64,000 nucleotides of DNA from a bacterium (lineage in GTDB: Bacteria; Arandabacterota; Arandabacteria; Arandabacterales; Arandabacteraceae): assembly GCA_029933125.1 (NCBI GenBank), contig JAOZOU010000002.1, positions 296,281 to 360,280 on the forward strand, in the 5' to 3' direction. Below the pieces are notes generated by a model. That model saw only the letters and a program-made list of their open reading frames with translations, did no database searches and had not been told where the DNA came from. Below are positions 19,962-28,571 of the stretch, in pieces (the stretch's first letter is position 1; every line of letters starts with the position of its first letter). Position numbers and translations under genes: made by a program.

Positions 19962-21674
19962 ATGGCGTTCATGGAGGAACCTGGAGTGACAACCTCACCC
20001 CGAAATCTGCCAATCCGTTGCTGGGAAGTGCTCTCATGCAAGGAGCAAGAATGCCAAGCGTTCGGCAATGAGAATTTTGCCTGCTGGTTGGCTGAAGACA
20101 GCAGGTGTTTTGACGGCTCTCCTAATCTTATCGAAAGGATTCGGTCAAGGTGTCTATCATGTGAGGTCTTTCTGAGTCATCGCAAAAGATCTTTTGGCAA
20201 GCGCTTTGCTGATGGTGCAATGCTTACAACAATGGACAATCTCCTGGGTGAAATCGGTGATCTTACCGCAAGGATCCAGGCGCTTGAAAATGAAGCCAGG
20301 AGTAGAATGGTTCAGGTGACACTCCTGAGTGAGGTGGGACGCGCTCTTCAAAGCACAATGGAGCTCGACGAGACCTTAAGAATCATCCTTACAGCGGTTA
20401 CCGCCGGTGATGGCCTAGGATTCAATCGTGCTTTCTTGCTTCTCCTTGATGAAGAGGGAAAGGAGCTCAGGGGGAGGATGGGAGTTGGTCCTGCGCATCC
20501 AGCTGAAGCCGAGAGCATTTGGAAGGCAATGGAAACCGAAGGATTGACCCTTCGCGAAATCCTGAGGCAACGCAAGATGGCTACTCCTGATGGCATCATG
20601 AGACTCGCAACCAACCTGCGCTATCCCCTCGATGCCAAGGATAACATCATTGCAGCCTGTCTGATCGAAGGTTCCTCTTACATTGCCAGCGGGTCGCATG
20701 ATCCAAGGCTAAGCGACTTGGTTCGCCATCTTGGTAACGATCATTTCATTGTGGTTCCTCTTGTTGCTGAGGGTGAAAGGCTCGGTGCAATTGTTGCAGA
20801 CAATTTTGTTACACGCCGTCCCATAACGCGTGAGGATATGCGGTTGCTTGAATCCTTTGCCAGCCAAGCTGCTCTTGCAATTGTTAATGCATCTCTCCAC
20901 GGGAAGCTTAAGGAGAGATTATCCCAGCTTGAGAAGGCTCACGAGGAGCTCAGCAGGAAGCACTGGCAGCTTGTGCGTGCCGAGCGGCTTGTTGCCCTTG
21001 CGGGTCTAGCTGCGACATTCGTACACGATCTCAAGGCTCCAATTGTTTCGATGGGCTTGATGGCAAGGTCTGCACTGGAGAGATTTAAGCATGATGCCGA
21101 GACTCGAAGTGTAATCGAGCAGATTTTGGAAGACATAGTAAGAATTGAAGACTATCTCAGCAAGCTTGCTGATACTGCCACCCATGGAAGACCTGATCAT
21201 GTTGAGATTGATCCAGCTGAGGTGATAAAGGATTCGCTTGACCTGATAAAAGGAAGCTTGCTTGTTCAGAATGTTGAGGCAAAGGTTGAGTTCAACCATC
21301 GCGATGCAAAGGTGAAAGGTAGCCCGGTCGAACTTAGACAAATGATGCTCAGCCTTCTTCAGAATTCGCTTGAAGCAATGCCACATGGTGGACAGATTTC
21401 AATATCAACAGCCCTTGAGAACAACAGGCTCAGGATAAGCGTGAGTGATACAGGTCACGGTATTCCTCAAGATATAAGTGACAGGGTATTCGCAATGTTT
21501 TTTACGACCAAGCCGACAGGTTCAGGGCTTGGGCTTTTCATAGTTAAGCGCATCGTCACTGACCATGGCGGCACAATTGCTCTTGAGTCGAAGGAAGGCA
21601 TGGGTACAAGTTTTGTGATCAACCTTCCTGTTGCTACTTCAGGAGACGACTCGGCAACGATGGGCGAGAAGTGA
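19962..21674 (+). CDS. Cytoplasmic sensor histidine kinase with Cys-rich N-terminus and GAF domain
   Basis: A 570-residue two-component kinase without membrane segments. Residues about 15-70 form a cysteine cluster (RCWEVLSCKEQEC ... CW ... DSRC ... CLSC) like the CW-type motif seen on other bacterial sensors; redox or metal sensing is possible. A coiled coil, a GAF domain (about 115-310), a second coiled coil, then HisKA with His355 in FVHDLKAP and an HATPase (N box LLQNSLEAM; G boxes DTGHGIP and GSGLGLFI) follow. ATG 19962 abuts the lon stop; GTG 19986 after GGAGG is an alternative. No response regulator is adjacent. Confidence 0.88.
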   Translation: MAFMEEPGVTTSPRNLPIRCWEVLSCKEQECQAFGNENFACWLAEDSRCFDGSPNLIERIRSRCLSCEVFLSHRKRSFGKRFADGAMLTTMDNLLGEIGDLTARIQALENEARSRMVQVTLLSEVGRALQSTMELDETLRIILTAVTAGDGLGFNRAFLLLLDEEGKELRGRMGVGPAHPAEAESIWKAMETEGLTLREILRQRKMATPDGIMRLATNLRYPLDAKDNIIAACLIEGSSYIASGSHDPRLSDLVRHLGNDHFIVVPLVAEGERLGAIVADNFVTRRPITREDMRLLESFASQAALAIVNASLHGKLKERLSQLEKAHEELSRKHWQLVRAERLVALAGLAATFVHDLKAPIVSMGLMARSALERFKHDAETRSVIEQILEDIVRIEDYLSKLADTATHGRPDHVEIDPAEVIKDSLDLIKGSLLVQNVEAKVEFNHRDAKVKGSPVELRQMMLSLLQNSLEAMPHGGQISISTALENNRLRISVSDTGHGIPQDISDRVFAMFFTTKPTGSGLGLFIVKRIVTDHGGTIALESKEGMGTSFVINLPVATSGDDSATMGEK

Positions 21675-22912
21675 ATAATATTCTTCCTCAAATAGCCTTG
21701 CTACTTGTTTTGCTGTGGCTTTCCTCTCTCTTTTCCGGTTCTGAAACCGCTCTCTTTTCCTTGAAGCCTTACCACATAAGAGAGCTCCAGAGGAAACCAT
21801 CAAGAAGATCACTTATGGTTAGCTCCCTCCTGACTGAGCCTTATCATCTTCTCATCGCAATTCTCATAGGAAACACCCTGGTAAATGTTGCTGCCTCAAG
21901 TATTGGTACAAACGTAGTTGGTAGATTTGTCAAGCATGGTGCCGTTGGCGTGAGTGTCTTTGTGATGACAGCGCTGATCCTTCTTTTTGGGGAGATAATT
22001 CCCAAGACGCTTGCTGTCAACAATCCCAAGGTAACCGCATTGAGAAACGTGCCCATTGTATCGGTGGCTGTTGGCGCATTCATGCCACTTCGTGTGGTGC
22101 TTGATAGAATCGTAAGATTTGTTCTTGAAGTGATCGCATCTCCAGTTAGAACGGAGCCCGGGCAGAAACACGCTCATGTATCAGAAGCAATAGATACGGG
22201 TCGAACCGAGGGTGTGCTTGATAAGACAGAGACTGACATGCTTGGCGGTATTGTTAGGCTCATGAATCTTTCAGTCCAGAACATAATGACACCGAGAACT
22301 GAGGTTTTCATGTTGAGCTCTGCTGTCAAGGTCAAGGAAGCAATCAACTTGGTTAGATCTTCTGGCTATTCTCGCATTCCTGTTTTTGATCACAAATCGC
22401 GAGATCGCATAGTCGGGATTCTTTATGCGAAGGATCTTTTGTACAAGCGTGCAGGCGAAGAAACTCCGATTGCGGAGATTGTGCGGGATCCTCTTTTCGT
22501 TCCTGAATCCAAGACACTCATCGATCTCCTGCAGGAATTTGTTTCGGGTAAAGCGCATTTCGCCGTTGTGATTGATGAGTATGGCTCGTTCACTGGTATT
22601 GTTACGCTTGATGACATTCTGGCGGAGGTGATCGGAAGGGATATTGGGGCATACGAGGAAAGGTACCGTTTCAGGCGGAAGTCGCGCAACGAATGGGAAG
22701 TCTCGGGTCGGATGGAGATAGAGTATCTCAATGCTCTGACAGGTTCGGGGATTACAAACCCCAAAGCTGAGACCATTGGAGGTTATATTCTCAACCACCT
22801 TGGCAGAATACCTGAGATTGGCGAAGAAGTGACAATAGACAATCTTAAATTCAAGATTGTCGATGCTGATAAACGCAGAATAATCACTGTGCTTGTGCAG
22901 AAGAGAAGGTAG
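21671..22912 (+). CDS. CNNM/CorC-family membrane protein with DUF21, CBS pair and CorC_HlyC domain (first copy)
   Basis: Integral membrane protein of 413 residues, a family linked to Mg or other divalent-cation efflux. Order: DUF21 transmembrane region (about 1-190, including SGSETALFSL and GEIIPKTLAV), a CBS pair (about 205-325, with IMTPRTEVFML and VIDEYGSFTGIVTLDDIL), and a C-terminal CorC_HlyC sandwich. GTG 21671 overlaps the histidine-kinase stop (GTGA), so it is translationally coupled. A paralogue follows directly, as often seen for this family. Confidence 0.92.
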   Translation: MNNILPQIALLLVLLWLSSLFSGSETALFSLKPYHIRELQRKPSRRSLMVSSLLTEPYHLLIAILIGNTLVNVAASSIGTNVVGRFVKHGAVGVSVFVMTALILLFGEIIPKTLAVNNPKVTALRNVPIVSVAVGAFMPLRVVLDRIVRFVLEVIASPVRTEPGQKHAHVSEAIDTGRTEGVLDKTETDMLGGIVRLMNLSVQNIMTPRTEVFMLSSAVKVKEAINLVRSSGYSRIPVFDHKSRDRIVGILYAKDLLYKRAGEETPIAEIVRDPLFVPESKTLIDLLQEFVSGKAHFAVVIDEYGSFTGIVTLDDILAEVIGRDIGAYEERYRFRRKSRNEWEVSGRMEIEYLNALTGSGITNPKAETIGGYILNHLGRIPEIGEEVTIDNLKFKIVDADKRRIITVLVQKRR

Positions 22913-22913
22913 T

Positions 22914-24140
22914 ATGAGCTATCTGTATCACATATTGGCTATCGCAGTCGCAATAGCAGGTGTAGCCTTCTTCTCGGGAAGTGAGACATCGCTTGTCTCA
23001 AGTAATCGCTTCAGGATAAAGGCACTAGCCAGGCAGGGTAATCGAGCTGCTATAAGGGCTTACTGGATGCTTCAAAGGCCGGCTCTACTTTTGAGTGTGA
23101 CCCTGGTTGGGACAAATATCCTTGTTGTGCTTGCATCTGCCCTTGCGACTGATGTTCTGATGCCTACTGTTGGCGCTTACTCGGTGCTTGTCTCGACACT
23201 GAGCATCACTGGTTTGCTCCTTGTCTTTGGTGATATCATACCCAAGGCAGTTGCACGTAGCAAGCCTGAGAGTATTCTCATGAGCTCATCCCTCGGTCTC
23301 CAACTAGCTTACTATACTCTCTATCCGATAGCCCTCCTTACATCAGGGGTGGCTAAGGCATTTGCTAAGGTTTCGAGTGGAATTCAACCCCAAACGTCTA
23401 TCACAAGAGAAGAGATAAGGGCACTCATAAAAGAGGCAACCGAAAGCAGTCTGGCACTCGGTCCTCAGGTATACGCTCACAGGATAATGGATCTGTCGCG
23501 AATGAGGGTCACCTCAGTAATGGTTCCTATGGATGAGGTTGAGTGTGTTGAGGAGGAGGCGACTGTAGATGAGGTCTTGCAGGTTGCATCAAGAAGCGGT
23601 CACTCGAGATATCCGGTCTACAGGCGGACGAGAGAAAACATTGTTGGCTTGTTGCATGTGAAAGACTTGCTTGGTGTCGGAGGCAAGACAAGAATAAAAG
23701 CCTTCATTAGAAGTGCTTTCTTCATTCCTGAAACCCAGACAGTTAAGATGGCGATAAGACTCATGAGGGAAGAGCCTCGACATATGGCAATTGTTGCAGA
23801 TGAGTATGGTCGTCCGATTGGCATTCTCACCTTCGAAGACCTTGTTGAAGAGATTGTGGGTGAGATAAAGGATGAATATGACAGAACAATGATTCCTGAG
23901 ATAGGTTTTGGCAAACCCCTGAGTGGGAGTCTTCCCGTAGCCATAATAAGAGAGACTCTTGGCATTGACATCCCGGAGGGTAACTATGAGACACTTGCTG
24001 GATTCATTGTTGATAGAGCTGGTAGAATGTGTCAGCCTGGTGATGTGATAAAGTACGATGTTTATCGTTTTGAAGTTCTCGAGGTAAAGCGCCGCAGAAT
24101 TAAGAGCGTACGCATAACAAAGCAGGATAAAGATGGCTAG
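22914..24140 (+). CDS. CNNM/CorC-family membrane protein (second copy)
   Basis: Paralogue of the preceding gene, 408 residues with the same order: DUF21 (SGSETSLVSS, FGDIIPKAVARS), CBS pair (SVMVPMDEVECV, VADEYGRPIGILTFEDLV) and CorC_HlyC. It starts at ATG 22914, one base after the previous stop. The two proteins differ throughout, so they are an old tandem pair that could form a heterodimer, as described for paired CorC/YfjD-type proteins. Its last 8 bp overlap the ROK gene. Confidence 0.92.
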   Translation: MSYLYHILAIAVAIAGVAFFSGSETSLVSSNRFRIKALARQGNRAAIRAYWMLQRPALLLSVTLVGTNILVVLASALATDVLMPTVGAYSVLVSTLSITGLLLVFGDIIPKAVARSKPESILMSSSLGLQLAYYTLYPIALLTSGVAKAFAKVSSGIQPQTSITREEIRALIKEATESSLALGPQVYAHRIMDLSRMRVTSVMVPMDEVECVEEEATVDEVLQVASRSGHSRYPVYRRTRENIVGLLHVKDLLGVGGKTRIKAFIRSAFFIPETQTVKMAIRLMREEPRHMAIVADEYGRPIGILTFEDLVEEIVGEIKDEYDRTMIPEIGFGKPLSGSLPVAIIRETLGIDIPEGNYETLAGFIVDRAGRMCQPGDVIKYDVYRFEVLEVKRRRIKSVRITKQDKDG

Positions 24141-25080
24141 AAAATTAGCAGTTTCCCTTGATGTCGGTGGTACGAACATCAAAATTGCGGCTGTAGACTC
24201 AGGGGGCAGAATCATCTCGCGTGCAAGAAGGCGGATGCATCAGCCAAGCTCGAAGGATGCTCTCTACGGTGAGCTAGCCGCCACTATTTCGTGGTTTATC
24301 AGAAGAGACAATCTTCTAAGAGAAGTGGCAGGTGTTGGGATTGGATTTGCAGGGCTTACCGATGGGGGGCGTGGAAGGGTCTATTTTGCTCCCAATATTG
24401 GGCAATTGAGCAATATCGAGATCAAGGATGAGCTTGAGAGGAGAATTGATCTTCGGATCACTGTCGAGAATGATGCCAATTGTGCGGTAGTGGGAGAATA
24501 CTGGCAGGGTGCGGCCAGAGGTTTCGACAGTGTTTTCATGTTCACCCTTGGAACGGGAATCGGTGGCGGGATAATTCTGGGGGGCAAGCTCTGGAGAGGA
24601 GCCTTTGGGATTGCAGGGGAGATCGGGCATACTGTCGTCGATCCGAATGGCTCAAGGTGCGCCTGCGGCAACCGTGGATGTCTTGAAGCTCTTGCTGGCG
24701 GAACTGCTCTCGTAAGGGATTATATCAGAAGAAGAAACATAAGAAGGGCGCATTCGACAATCACTCCAAAGGAAGTTGTTGAACGGGCCAAGCATGGCGA
24801 CCGAATAGCAATGAGTGTAGTGACGCAGGCAGGAAAGGCACTTGGGATTGGTATTGCGAACGTTTTCAATTTGGTCAACCCCTCCTTGATTCTTATCGGT
24901 GGCGGGGTAAGCAGGGCTGGTAGCTTTCTCCTTGCTCCGGCTATTGAGAACGCGCGTAGCCTGATCGCACCTGCCCTGCGATCCCATCTCTTGGTTAAGC
25001 GCAGCAGACTTGGGGATGATGCCGGAGTTCTTGGAAGCGCGTATCTTTGCTTTAAGCAAGTAGGTGTTGCGACATCATAG
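24133..25080 (+). CDS. ROK family sugar kinase, glucokinase-like
   Basis: Phosphorylates a hexose such as glucose with ATP in the cytoplasm. The 315-residue protein has the ATP-binding phosphate-1 motif DVGGTNIKIAAVD, catalytic Asp in VENDANCA, GTGIGGGIILGG, and the ROK zinc-binding signature GH-x9-CACGNRGCLE. There is no N-terminal helix-turn-helix, so it is an enzyme and not a ROK repressor. It overlaps the upstream CNNM gene by 8 bp and is the last gene of the long operon from speD onward. Glucose specificity is likely but not certain. Confidence 0.9.
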   Translation: MARKLAVSLDVGGTNIKIAAVDSGGRIISRARRRMHQPSSKDALYGELAATISWFIRRDNLLREVAGVGIGFAGLTDGGRGRVYFAPNIGQLSNIEIKDELERRIDLRITVENDANCAVVGEYWQGAARGFDSVFMFTLGTGIGGGIILGGKLWRGAFGIAGEIGHTVVDPNGSRCACGNRGCLEALAGGTALVRDYIRRRNIRRAHSTITPKEVVERAKHGDRIAMSVVTQAGKALGIGIANVFNLVNPSLILIGGGVSRAGSFLLAPAIENARSLIAPALRSHLLVKRSRLGDDAGVLGSAYLCFKQVGVATS

Positions 25081-25140: not shown

Positions 25141-26211
25141 GTGAACATCTTTGAGAAGCTTAGAGATTCGAATCATGAGCAGGTCATGTTCCTGCGCGAG
25201 CCGGTTTCAGGACTAAAAGCCGTAATTGCCATTCATGATACCACTCTTGGTCCAGCTATTGGTGGAGTTCGTATGTGGAAATATGAAGGTGAGGAGAATG
25301 CCGTCGAGGATGCTTTGAAACTTTCGCGAGCTATGACCTTTAAGGCAGCGGGGGCGGGACTTAATTTTGGCGGTGGTCAAACCGTTGTACTTGGGGATCC
25401 GAGAAAGGACAAGTCAGAAGCTCTCTTCAGAGCTCTTGGCAGATTCATTGATAGTTTCGGTGGTCGCTACATAGCAGCTGAGGGTGTGGGAACGACATAT
25501 GAGGACATGGATTACATTCGGATGGAAACCCGCTATGTAGTTGGCATACCAAGCTCTCGAGGTGGAAGTGGTGATCCATCCCCCATGTGCGCCTACGGTG
25601 TTGTGAGGGGGCTTGAGGCTTGTCAAGCCTTCAGGACCGGGAGTGATGATCTCTCTGGTCTGCGCGTTGCTGTACAGGGCGTAGGGAAGGTTGGAAGCAT
25701 AATTGTTAAGATGCTCATTGAGCGAGGCGCCAAGGTTACCATTGCCGATGTTGATGAGCAAGCAATTAGGCGGATTTCTGAGTCGTTCGATGTTAAGGTC
25801 TTTTCTCCCGAAGAGATTTTTGATGTTGACTGTGACGTGTTCTGCCCTTGTGCTTTGGGAGGAATCATAAACGATAGCACCATCAAACGCCTTAAGTGTT
25901 CAATCGTGGCTGGAGCGGCTAATAACCAGCTCGAAGAATCCCGCCATGGTGATCTGCTCCATGAGCTCGGAATCCTCTATGCACCTGACTACATAATAAA
26001 CGCCGGTGGCCTCATAAATGTCACTGACGAAATATACGGCTATGACGAGAAGCGAGCTCTTCGTAAGACAGCGGCTATCCGTGATGTTCTTTATCGCATC
26101 CTTGTATCGTCGCGCGAGGAAGGCATCCCCACTTACAAGGCTGCTGACAAGTTCGCAATGCAGCGAATTGAGAAGGTTGGGAGAGTGAGGCGGTCTTTTG
26201 TCTCCTCTTAG
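25141..26211 (+). CDS. Leucine-dehydrogenase-like protein lacking two catalytic residues
   Basis: A 356-residue member of the Glu/Leu/Phe/Val dehydrogenase family, near the 364 of leucine dehydrogenases. The substrate-carboxyl Lys68 is kept (MTFKAAGAGL), and the NAD fold is intact (VQGVGKVGS). The catalytic Lys expected at position 80 is Gln (GGGQTVV), and the catalytic Asp expected at 115 is Gly (AAEGVGT). Both fall exactly at the Bacillus leucine-dehydrogenase numbering. Ordinary amino-acid oxidation therefore seems unlikely, and the function is open. The start is GTG 25141 with GGAGACGG upstream. The 3-prime end overlaps the convergent FAH gene by 4 bp. Confidence 0.85.
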   Translation: MNIFEKLRDSNHEQVMFLREPVSGLKAVIAIHDTTLGPAIGGVRMWKYEGEENAVEDALKLSRAMTFKAAGAGLNFGGGQTVVLGDPRKDKSEALFRALGRFIDSFGGRYIAAEGVGTTYEDMDYIRMETRYVVGIPSSRGGSGDPSPMCAYGVVRGLEACQAFRTGSDDLSGLRVAVQGVGKVGSIIVKMLIERGAKVTIADVDEQAIRRISESFDVKVFSPEEIFDVDCDVFCPCALGGIINDSTIKRLKCSIVAGAANNQLEESRHGDLLHELGILYAPDYIINAGGLINVTDEIYGYDEKRALRKTAAIRDVLYRILVSSREEGIPTYKAADKFAMQRIEKVGRVRRSFVSS

Positions 26212-27110
26212 GCCTCGGCTACCACTGGATTGCTGAGTGTTCCAATCCCCTCGATCGATATCTCAACGATGTCACCATCTTCGAGAAAAACCTGAGGGTC
26301 TCTGAAGACTCCAACTCCACCCGGAGTCCCTGTCGAGACAATGTCACCAGGAAGCAGAGTTATGTGACGTGAGATGAAGACAACGATATCCACTGGTTTG
26401 AATATCAGGTTGGCTGTCGAGCTCGCTTGCATTGTTATCGAATTGACCTTTGTGGTTATCGCAAGGCTGAGCGGGTCTCCCAAGTCATCCTCGGTCACGA
26501 TCCAGGGGCCGAGCGGGCAGAAAGTGTCGATACTCTTGGAGCGAAACCACTGCTTTTCCTTGAACTGAATCTCGCGCTCGGTGACATCATTGAGACAGCA
26601 ATATCCGAGAATAGAGTCCCTCGCAGAGCTAGAATCAGCATTACGAACAGGCTTCGACACCACGAAAGCAAATTCACCTTCAAAGTCAACTTTGGTTGAG
26701 CCTTTTGGAATCAAAATTGCATCGCCATGCCCGATCACAGCGGTCGGTGCCTTGGCAAAAAGGAGGGGAGCATCTGGAATTTTGGCGCCCTGCTCCTCTA
26801 TGTGATCCCGATAGTTTCGTCCCAGGCAAATTATCTTTGAGGGCTTCCTCACAGGTGGACAGATTCGGACCTCACCCAAACTTGCCCAACAATGAAGAGG
26901 AAAATCGATGCCGCTTTCCCCTTTCTCCCTTATTGCCTCTTCGAGCTCTCGAAGAAGGTCGAGCTTAGCTGATGTGAGGATATCCATGAGATCTGATGGA
27001 AGAGGCCCAATCTCAAGGAACATCGAGCAGGCAGCAACGTCATAGACATTACCCTTGATCAAAAGCCCTGCCCTTTCTTCGTGATTTCGCCTGTAAGTGA
27101 GGATTTTCAA
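26208..27110 (-). CDS. Fumarylacetoacetate hydrolase (FAH) family protein
   Basis: FAH-superfamily enzyme of 300 residues; members are hydrolases, decarboxylases or isomerases of 2-keto or dicarboxylic compounds, including oxaloacetate decarboxylases. The core starts with CLGRNYRDHIEEQG, the metal-binding Glu pair is in VDFEGEFAFVV, the metal Asp in CLNDVTERE, and the end has LLPGDIVSTGTPGGVG. The start is TTG (complement of 27108-27110) after a strong AAGGAGGG. It is convergent with the dehydrogenase-like gene and divergent from the thioesterase. The substrate cannot be read from the sequence. Confidence 0.9.
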   Translation of the reverse strand: MKILTYRRNHEERAGLLIKGNVYDVAACSMFLEIGPLPSDLMDILTSAKLDLLRELEEAIREKGESGIDFPLHCWASLGEVRICPPVRKPSKIICLGRNYRDHIEEQGAKIPDAPLLFAKAPTAVIGHGDAILIPKGSTKVDFEGEFAFVVSKPVRNADSSSARDSILGYCCLNDVTEREIQFKEKQWFRSKSIDTFCPLGPWIVTEDDLGDPLSLAITTKVNSITMQASSTANLIFKPVDIVVFISRHITLLPGDIVSTGTPGGVGVFRDPQVFLEDGDIVEISIEGIGTLSNPVVAEA

Positions 27111-27136
27111 GGCAACCCTCCTTGGGTTTTTGGCAT

Positions 27137-27165
27137 TTGCAATCGGGATGCTTCTCCGTTACAAT
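27137..27165 (+). promoter_or_regulatory. Sigma-70 type promoter of thioesterase-phosphotransbutyrylase pair
   Basis: TTGCAA at 27137-27142 and TACAAT at 27160-27165, spacer 17 bp, in the divergent gap between the FAH and thioesterase genes. A start near 27172 supports ATG 27211 over the upstream in-frame codon at 27097. Confidence 0.65.
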
Positions 27166-27210
27166 ATCTTGCAACAATCAGATAATTCAAGTGGAAATTG
27201 GAGCAATGTA

Positions 27211-27627
27211 ATGCAATTGATTGATATCGGCATGTGCTTCGTTTGTGGAAAGAAGAATCCAGGCGGGCTTCAGGCTGACTTTGAGATTGATATCGAAGCC
27301 AGAAGACTCAAAGGTGGTTTTGTCCCAGGTGAGATACACCAGGGCTACGGAGGCATAATGCATGGTGGACTTGCAGCCTGTCTCCTTGATGAAGCTATGG
27401 TCAAGCTGCTCTGGGAGATAGGCATTCCGGCTGTCAGTGCTTCCCTTGAGATAAAGCTTCGCAAGCCTATCAAGATAGGTGAGAAAGTCATAATAAGTGG
27501 ATGGATAGAGACAGAAAGAGGCCGAGTTATTAACACAGCGGCTAGGCTTGAAACTGACGAGGGAGATGTTCTTGCAGAAGGCAGAGGCGTTTGTGTCAGG
27601 ATATCACAAAAAGGGGGATCGATGTGA
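27211..27627 (+). CDS. PaaI-type hotdog-fold thioesterase
   Basis: A 138-residue hotdog protein likely to hydrolyse an acyl-CoA thioester. The signature GYGGIMHGGLAACLLDEAM covers the active-site His-Gly-Gly and the catalytic acid of the hotdog helix. An N-terminal CFVCGKKNPGGL motif, common in this subfamily, precedes it. ATG 27211 follows TTGGAGC and fits the promoter. It is coupled by a GTGA overlap to the phosphate acyltransferase gene, which points to acyl-CoA metabolism, for example branched-chain or butyryl groups. Confidence 0.86.
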   Translation: MQLIDIGMCFVCGKKNPGGLQADFEIDIEARRLKGGFVPGEIHQGYGGIMHGGLAACLLDEAMVKLLWEIGIPAVSASLEIKLRKPIKIGEKVIISGWIETERGRVINTAARLETDEGDVLAEGRGVCVRISQKGGSM

Positions 27628-28571
27628 CAGCCCATAAGTCTGGCGATTCGAGAGTGAGATTTGGTGACATAATCAAGCTTGCTCGCAAGATATCGAAGCG
27701 TCATCGACCTAGGGTTGCAATAGCTGGAGCAGCTGACCCTATCGTTCTCGATGTAGTCTGTGATGCTTCTGCACAGGGATTTGCCGTGCCGATTCTATTT
27801 GGCAAGAAATCGGACATAGATTCGCTTGCAAAGCGAGAGCATCTTTCGCTTGGAGGTTGTGAAATTGTTGATGTTGCTGACGCCACAGATGCTGCAAGAC
27901 TGGCCACTCAAGCTGCCAGCTCAGGTGATGCAGATGTTTTGATGAAGGGCAACGTTACCACTGCTACGATTATGAGGGCAGCACTCGATAGGGACATAGG
28001 TATAAAGACCGATAGATTGATGAGTCATGTTGCTGTCTTTGAGGTTGAAGGCTACGATCGCATAATGTTCATGTCCGACGGCGGGATAGTCATAGAACCC
28101 GACCTTGAGCAAAAGGTTGAGATTGTGAAGAACGCAATTAGTGTTGCCCATGCGCTAGGGGTGAAGCAACCCAAGGTGGCTTTGCTTTCCTCAATCGAGA
28201 TCGTCAATACCAAGATGCGCTCAGCTGTGGATGCTGCGATCATTGCGAAGATGGCAGATCGGGGGCAGATAAAGGGGGCTATCGTCGATGGTCCCTTTGC
28301 TTTCGACAATGCCATATCTCCCCAGGCGGCAAAGCACAAGGGTGTAAGAAGCCAGGTTGCTGGGAATGCAGACATTTTGATCGTTGGGCATGCTGATGTT
28401 GGAAATGTGTTCTACAAGACTTTAACTTATTTCGTTGGCAAGCGTTGCAAAACTGCGGGAGTGATTGTGGGAGGTATGGTCCCTATGGTGGTTGTCTCGC
28501 GAGCTGACACCTATGAGGCTCGTCTGAATTCGATTGCGGTTGCTTGCATCCTCTCTCAGGCGGATAGATAG
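27624..28571 (+). CDS. Phosphate acetyl/butyryltransferase family enzyme, Ptb-like
   Basis: Transfers an acyl group between CoA and phosphate, giving acyl-phosphate for ATP formation by a kinase. The 316-residue protein fits the shorter phosphotransbutyrylase type: DVLMKGNVTTATIMRAAL, MSDGGIVIEPDLEQK, and the late NADILIVGHADVGNVFYK segment. GTG 27624 overlaps the thioesterase stop; the longer frame from 27591 lies inside that gene. No butyrate or acetate kinase is adjacent. Butyryl versus acetyl or branched-chain specificity is undecided. Confidence 0.88.
   Translation: MTAHKSGDSRVRFGDIIKLARKISKRHRPRVAIAGAADPIVLDVVCDASAQGFAVPILFGKKSDIDSLAKREHLSLGGCEIVDVADATDAARLATQAASSGDADVLMKGNVTTATIMRAALDRDIGIKTDRLMSHVAVFEVEGYDRIMFMSDGGIVIEPDLEQKVEIVKNAISVAHALGVKQPKVALLSSIEIVNTKMRSAVDAAIIAKMADRGQIKGAIVDGPFAFDNAISPQAAKHKGVRSQVAGNADILIVGHADVGNVFYKTLTYFVGKRCKTAGVIVGGMVPMVVVSRADTYEARLNSIAVACILSQADR

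Follow-up and report, generated by a model that had tools for sequence, protein, structure and literature searches.

A maintained leucine dehydrogenase homologue without the catalytic lysine and aspartate, and the altered paralogue that accompanies it

The gene at positions 25141-26211 of the window (the whole 64,000-nucleotide stretch of DNA that was analysed) encodes a maintained protein of the leucine dehydrogenase (LeuDH) type, in which the catalytic Lys80 and Asp115 of that enzyme are replaced by Gln and Gly. The same genome holds one other LeuDH-type copy, encoded on a different contig. The two proteins, for which the labels A (the family of the window gene) and B (the second LeuDH-like paralogue) were coined in this analysis, are, by sequence, impaired in complementary ways, and the pair is found in four phylum-level groups. 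Within the ELFV superfamily, A and B belong to the LeuDH branch and are best described as a pseudoenzyme or prozyme-like pair. The gene, its diagnostic codons, its neighbours in the window and its paralogue are as follows.

24133-25080, + strand: ROK-family sugar kinase, upstream of A and likewise upstream in G001, G004 and G005 (domain match, neighbourhood)
25141-26211, + strand: A-type leucine-dehydrogenase-like gene; GTG start, 356 aa, both ELFV domains, LeuDH fold by model
25342-25344, + strand: codon AAG, Lys68, kept; substrate carboxylate site (alignment and direct codon reading)
25378-25380, + strand: codon CAA, Gln80, where LeuDH has the catalytic Lys80 (alignment and direct codon reading)
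25483-25485, + strand: codon GGT, Gly115, where LeuDH has the catalytic Asp115 (alignment and direct codon reading)
25678-25695, + strand: Gly-rich nucleotide-binding motif GVGKVG, residues 180-185, kept (alignment; G180, G182 and D203 in 21/21 A-type rows)
25921-25926, + strand: Asn261-Asn262, carboxylate side of the pocket, kept (alignment; N261 in 21/21 A-type rows)
26208-27110, - strand: fumarylacetoacetate-hydrolase (FAH) family protein, after A (domain match; same in 6/6 relatives)
27097-27627, + strand: 4HBT thioesterase, after A (domain match; same in 6/6 relatives)
27591-28571, + strand: phosphate butyryltransferase-like protein (Ptb), after A (domain match; same in 6/6 relatives)
G000:C171:175357-176445 (L115:8858-9946), on contig C171: B of the same genome

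An earlier note on this DNA had described the gene as a LeuDH homologue that keeps Lys68, carries Gln and Gly at the positions of the catalytic Lys80 and Asp115, and is intact in its frame, its length and its Rossmann half. These observations are borne out. The frame is open, both ELFV Pfam domains score above their cut-offs, and the fold and domain order are those of LeuDH. The closest PDB entries identified by phmmer are the leucine dehydrogenases 6acf, 8hpe and 1leh, with which A is collinear, with zero gaps across the catalytic region. In these alignments, Gln80 falls on Lys80 and Gly115 falls on Asp115, and Lys68 is conserved. An alignment shift that restores the Lys and the Asp, which the note had named as a ground for abandoning its claim, was looked for and is ruled out by the collinear, gap-free alignment near residues 80 and 115. 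The predicted model of A (mean pLDDT 91.8) has LeuDH 8gxd as its best match (Z 52.5, rmsd 1.4 over 353 residues). All of the carboxylate-site residues (Lys68, Asn261 and Asn262) are present, and the residues of the NAD site, the Gly-rich loop and Asp203, are intact. Against the NCBIfam model of the tryptophan dehydrogenase ScyB (NF035922), A scores 378.5 bits, below the cut-off of 600 bits. At residue 150 (25588-25590), which is Thr in normal LeuDH, a Cys is found in 7/7 copies of A from its own phylum and in that of G086, or 8 of the 21 A rows described below.

The claim that this is a maintained protein and not a decayed gene also holds. The sample of its own phylum comprises 8 genomes, the class-level and phylum-level searches having given the identical 8, and seven of them contain an orthologue of A, at 67-100% identity. 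Gln80 is present in all seven and is encoded synonymously, by CAA in three and CAG in four; the copy at L036, for example, has CAG at residue 80 and GGC at residue 115. The dN/dS ratio is 0.07-0.21 in the 10 of 21 own-phylum pairs with unsaturated dS, a range that excludes the 11 saturated pairs, which are those with the window gene (all of them) or with L034. Together with the confident model of the LeuDH fold, the open frame, the seven orthologues, this constraint and the CAA/CAG swaps at Gln80 rule out a pseudogene and leave a decaying gene or an assembly error with a negligible chance. Gly115 is found in six of the seven copies, and the most distant one, from G006, has Asp115. With Gln80 in all seven, this distribution suggests that in this phylum Lys80 was probably lost first and Asp115 afterwards.

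To place these replacements, 242 matches were collapsed to 198 distinct aligned rows. The rows were classed as canonical (K68/K80/D115/N261/N262), A (K68 without K80) or B (without K68); the counts at residues 68 and 80 in A and B therefore hold by definition, and what does not depend on the class definition is the tree, G290 and the states of A and B at residues 261 and 115. Of the 152 rows that are neither A nor B, all have K68, 151 have K80 and 151 have D115. The D115 exception is L223 (G452), a LeuDH-like gene with Glu, and the K80 exception is L185 (L185:4810-5880, G069), a single LeuDH-like gene with Ser80 that keeps K68 and D115. The 29 other fetched members of its class have Lys80, and L185, as a lone gene in an otherwise K80 class, was left out of A; if counted in, it would be an extra, independent K80 loss with no B partner.

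In the 21 A rows, K68, N261, D203 and the Gly-rich loop are universally kept. Residue 80 is Gln in 11 rows, Ser in five, Ala in four and Glu in one, with Lys in none, and Asp115 is kept in 6/21. Besides residue 80, only Leu99 is common to nearly all A rows and rare elsewhere, so that A otherwise reads as an ordinary LeuDH. No A-specific conserved Lys, Arg or His that could represent a migrated base was found anywhere in A in the 198-row alignment. The 25 B rows have Gln (24) or Glu (1) at residue 68 and never Lys, and Ser (13), Tyr (7) or Phe (5) at residue 261 and never Asn. Residue 290 is Glu or Asp in 25/25 B rows versus Gly in 150/150 canonical rows. K80 is present in 12/25 B rows and D115 in 12/25; the two occur together in 6/25, and all six belong to the window's own family.

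The earlier note had recommended a search for a second, normal copy, and none is present in this genome. PF02812 finds three genes there: window A; one glutamate dehydrogenase, in which the Lys and Asp motifs are present (GAGKGG, AGDIG); and B, the sole other LeuDH-type copy, abnormal in the complementary way. B is 47% identical to A and has Gln68, Tyr261, Asp262 and Glu290, with Lys80 and Asp115 retained; its predicted model has the LeuDH fold (pLDDT 87.4, Z 47.7). The B proteins of the own family agree with one another (6/6 genomes), having Q68, A/G114 and Y261 with K80 and D115 kept, plus Glu290. A replaced carboxylate site beside a retained K80 and D115 is the sequence pattern of an amine dehydrogenase, and all six of these B rows display it.

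A survey of 386 mostly distant genomes with B as the query yielded 50 genomes with strong matches. Among the loci read, altered pairs outside the own phylum occur in only three genomes, G076, G086 and G128, and a second broad survey with a B profile over nearly the same set (385 genomes) added no further group. In the phylum of G076, B is found in 13 of 20 genomes and A in nine; in that of G128, B is found in 5 of 14 genomes and A in four; G086, the one genome of its group, has both. Overall, both members are present in 20 of the 26 genomes that have either (own phylum 6/7, G076 phylum 9/13, G086 1/1, G128 phylum 4/5), and one member alone is seen in six. One of these, G006, has A and no B match in an assembly that is 83% complete; the partnerless cases are all in draft assemblies, in which thresholds may have hidden some partners. 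No third LeuDH-type match was found in any of the 26 genomes, with an E-value limit of 1e-3 in the own phylum and of up to 1e-50 in the others.

A tree calculated from 76 rows without columns 68, 80, 115, 261, 262 and 290 recovers A as one clade (bootstrap 95, SH-aLRT 94) and B as another (100/99). A quicker method applied to 120 rows, likewise without the diagnostic columns, gives 88 for the A clade and 99 for the B clade. Several A and B terminal branches are long, and long-branch grouping is a risk in these clades. B lies near a Bacillota paralogue, here called gtd, that retains all catalytic residues. In L074, L104 and L113 (Bacillota), gtd accompanies buk and ptb, and another LeuDH gene, a normal one, lies close by; in L081 and L094 (Bacillota), two intact LeuDH-type genes are adjacent. 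The second LeuDH-type copy at these five loci has Thr114 where the normal residue is Glu114. A likely history, which we infer from these arrangements, is that two intact LeuDH-type genes tied to buk-ptb came first and that the catalytic residues were later lost in the groups described here.

The surroundings of both genes point towards acyl-CoA metabolism. The Ptb-like gene follows A in the window, as listed above, and A is followed by ptb in three of four loci of the G128 phylum, the fourth being too short to tell. In the own family, the order B-buk-ech (butyrate kinase, enoyl-CoA hydratase) is seen in five of six genomes, and the sixth is interrupted by a contig end; on the other side of B in the window's own genome are propionyl-CoA carboxylase-type subunits, a methylmalonyl-CoA mutase and an epimerase. 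In G086, the three genes B, buk and A are direct neighbours on a single strand. Across the G076 phylum, buk-ech-A is found in 9/9 and B adjoins methylmalonyl-CoA mutase in 12/13, with the remaining locus starting at a contig end. In G076 itself, the genes between B and A encode an HMG-CoA-synthase-like protein, a thiolase, acyl-CoA carboxylase subunits, enoyl-CoA hydratases, an acyl-CoA dehydrogenase and Buk. The B of the G128 phylum lies away from buk, between a deaminase-like gene and an enolase (named by eye). For the fate of the 2-oxo acids, POR_N has four matches in the own genome and PF00676 (E1_dh) only two, both partial (43.7 and 28.1 bits, cut-off 22 bits), so oxidation by 2-oxoacid:ferredoxin oxidoreductases is likelier than by a BCKDH complex, which was rejected as the next enzyme. 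In the window, the thioesterase frame at 27097-27627 gives 176 aa compared with 136-148 in relatives, and its true start is probably downstream; the frames at 21671-22912 and 22893-24140 are similar tandem genes that appear by eye to encode membrane proteins of the CBS/HlyC-CorC kind.

The residues, their conservation, the co-occurrence, the tree and the gene linkage lead us to propose a complex, a ligand and a regulatory role for A. On the reading that we prefer, to which we give slightly less than an even chance, A and B join in a hetero-oligomer that serves the catabolism of branched-chain acyl-CoA, and A is its catalytically dead, ligand-binding member. The fold of LeuDH, its NAD site and its pocket for branched-chain amino or keto acids are all kept in A, but the loss of Lys80, the general base, and of Asp115, which partners it, would leave A unable to run normal amino-acid dehydrogenation. 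It would probably associate with B, which is encoded elsewhere in the genome beside butyrate kinase, and would bind or sense a branched-chain acid and/or NAD(H). Ligand-bound A may then control the state either of B or of the Ptb-Buk branch, which turns acyl-CoA into acyl phosphate and this into acid plus ATP. A is taken as a binding subunit without turnover because its NAD and carboxylate residues are kept, and as part of an A+B assembly in this pathway because it travels with B and with buk or ptb. Counting against such a complex, the own genome carries A and B on separate contigs, the B of the G128 phylum is away from buk, B is itself altered, and six of the 26 genomes, G006 among them, show a single member. 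More doubtfully, the pair as a whole may be an old, co-inherited two-subunit LeuDH-fold system in which neither active site is whole, A having lost the base and kept the carboxylate/NAD side and B lacking the carboxylate side and having acquired an acidic residue 290. Such a system would have taken over from LeuDH where branched-chain catabolism is linked to Ptb-Buk, acting as a regulatory complex that binds ligands or through a reaction new to the superfamily.

Of the other readings, the one that comes nearest, though we regard it as unlikely, has A as a stand-alone pseudoenzyme homo-oligomer that binds a branched-chain amino or keto acid and NAD(H) and serves Ptb/Buk as a sensor or scaffold, with no obligate partner and with B doing a separate job. 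The retained ligand-site residues, a linkage of A with either ptb or buk in each of the four groups and the occurrence of A with no B match in G006 are consistent with it, whereas the presence of B in 20 of the 26 genomes and the adjacent B, buk and A genes of G086 argue for a partnership. Less probable still is an active enzyme, formed by A or by A and B, with a changed chemistry independent of Lys80 and Asp115, such as hydride transfer on a branched-chain non-amino-acid substrate. This would account for the retention of D203 and the NAD loop in both proteins, for the acidic residue 290 (25/25) and the aromatic residue or Ser at 261 gained by B, and for conservation across several phyla. However, A has no common new polar pocket residue, only L99 being distinctive beyond residue 80, and residue 80 varies by group (Q, A, S, E), which fits a loss better than a new catalytic residue.

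Loss of Asp115 on top of Lys80 should abolish any remaining activity, according to work on the matching Asp of glutamate dehydrogenase. In LeuDH, every active site is contained in a single subunit, and a trans-complemented amino-acid dehydrogenase, with K68/N261 supplied by A and K80/D115 by B, is not favoured as a general explanation: 10 of 14 pairs outside the own phylum have no K80 in either member (G086 1/1, G128 phylum 4/4, G076 phylum 5/9), and D115 is missing from both A and B throughout the G076 phylum. In the own family alone, such complementation may apply. It is improbable, in turn, that the own-family B is a natural amine dehydrogenase with A as its structural partner. Engineered amine dehydrogenases alter K68, E114 and N261 of LeuDH and use K80/D115 (PMC8766677), and in 6/6 own-family genomes B is changed at these positions (Q68, A/G114, Y261) and keeps K80 and D115; yet K80 and D115 occur together in 0/19 B rows of the other three groups, E290 has no counterpart among the engineered enzymes seen, and the gene context is acyl-CoA catabolism. 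Least probable of these is that A is a slow but ordinary LeuDH. The general base of LeuDH is Lys80, and in mutant work covered by a review (PMC12018205) a Lys80 mutant keeps slight activity, about 1.5% of normal deamination, which ammonia rescues partially, to 20%. By analogy with these mutants, A would have lost its dehydrogenase activity. Against a slow LeuDH, the rescue is weaker for K80Q than for K80A (PMC12018205), the own-family A also has no Asp115, and the K80 loss is common to four groups.

Should A and B form the single complex that we prefer, a whole LeuDH-type enzyme would have been convertible to a two-part system that keeps binding and abandons the standard chemistry, and with two genes, known folds and simple assays, the pair would offer a clear test case. 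The recurrence of this odd pair in four groups, often near the genes that take acyl-CoA to acid plus ATP, suggests that its members work jointly in an undescribed way. Annotation by similarity is likely to call both A and B leucine dehydrogenase and so to predict an activity that is probably absent.

Compared with known systems, A resembles LeuDH itself (6acf, 8hpe, 1leh, 3vpx, 8gxd; 51-54% identity in structural alignments) in length, fold, NAD loop, K68, N261 and N262, and differs in its replaced K80 and D115, in a genome with no normal copy and in having a second altered paralogue as pair-mate. In the Bacillota ptb-bcd-buk operons (e.g., L042, L043 and L100), the LeuDH gene has those for phosphate butyryltransferase and butyrate kinase as neighbours, a linkage that resembles that of A and B; unlike A and B, the double LeuDH-type genes around buk-ptb in L074, L104 and L113 both keep their catalytic residues. 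The own-family B, and not A, is similar in sequence to the engineered amine dehydrogenases (LeuDH K68S/N261L/E114V). It is naturally altered at the same three positions that engineers changed to convert LeuDH, with K80/D115 kept, and an amine dehydrogenase role for it is possible; in contrast to the engineered enzymes, it has other residues (Q68, Y261, A/G114) and, in addition, E290. A search of open-licence PMC papers found no description of such a LeuDH-branch pseudoenzyme or of an A/B pair. Pseudoenzyme subunits are already known in the glutamate dehydrogenase branch. In Thermus thermophilus, GdhA is reported (PMC9570180) to be an inactive subunit that serves leucine activation of glutamate dehydrogenase. 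The GdhA/GdhB hetero-hexamer belongs to the same superfamily as A and B and likewise has one catalytically inactive, there regulatory, subunit; the co-occurrence of an impaired paralogue with a second one is matched here at the level of sequence (20/26 genomes). GdhB is catalytic, whereas B has no complete active site (without K68 and N261 in 25/25 rows, K68 by definition), and because B is itself altered, with N261 lost throughout and K80 in only 12/25, the pair has no clearly active partner, unlike that of Thermus. The Thermus proteins are also of the glutamate dehydrogenase type rather than the LeuDH type, and their complex is the counterpart of one that is proposed here. Finally, the trypanosome DHS prozyme (PMC3663545) is a paralogue without the catalytic Lys that keeps its substrate-binding residues and activates an impaired partner 3000-fold. 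TbDHSc and TbDHSp parallel B and A in combining an impaired with a dead paralogue, the dead one having no catalytic Lys, and in having their genes apart; their fold and reaction are unrelated, and their association and activation are demonstrated, whereas the association of A and B is proposed.
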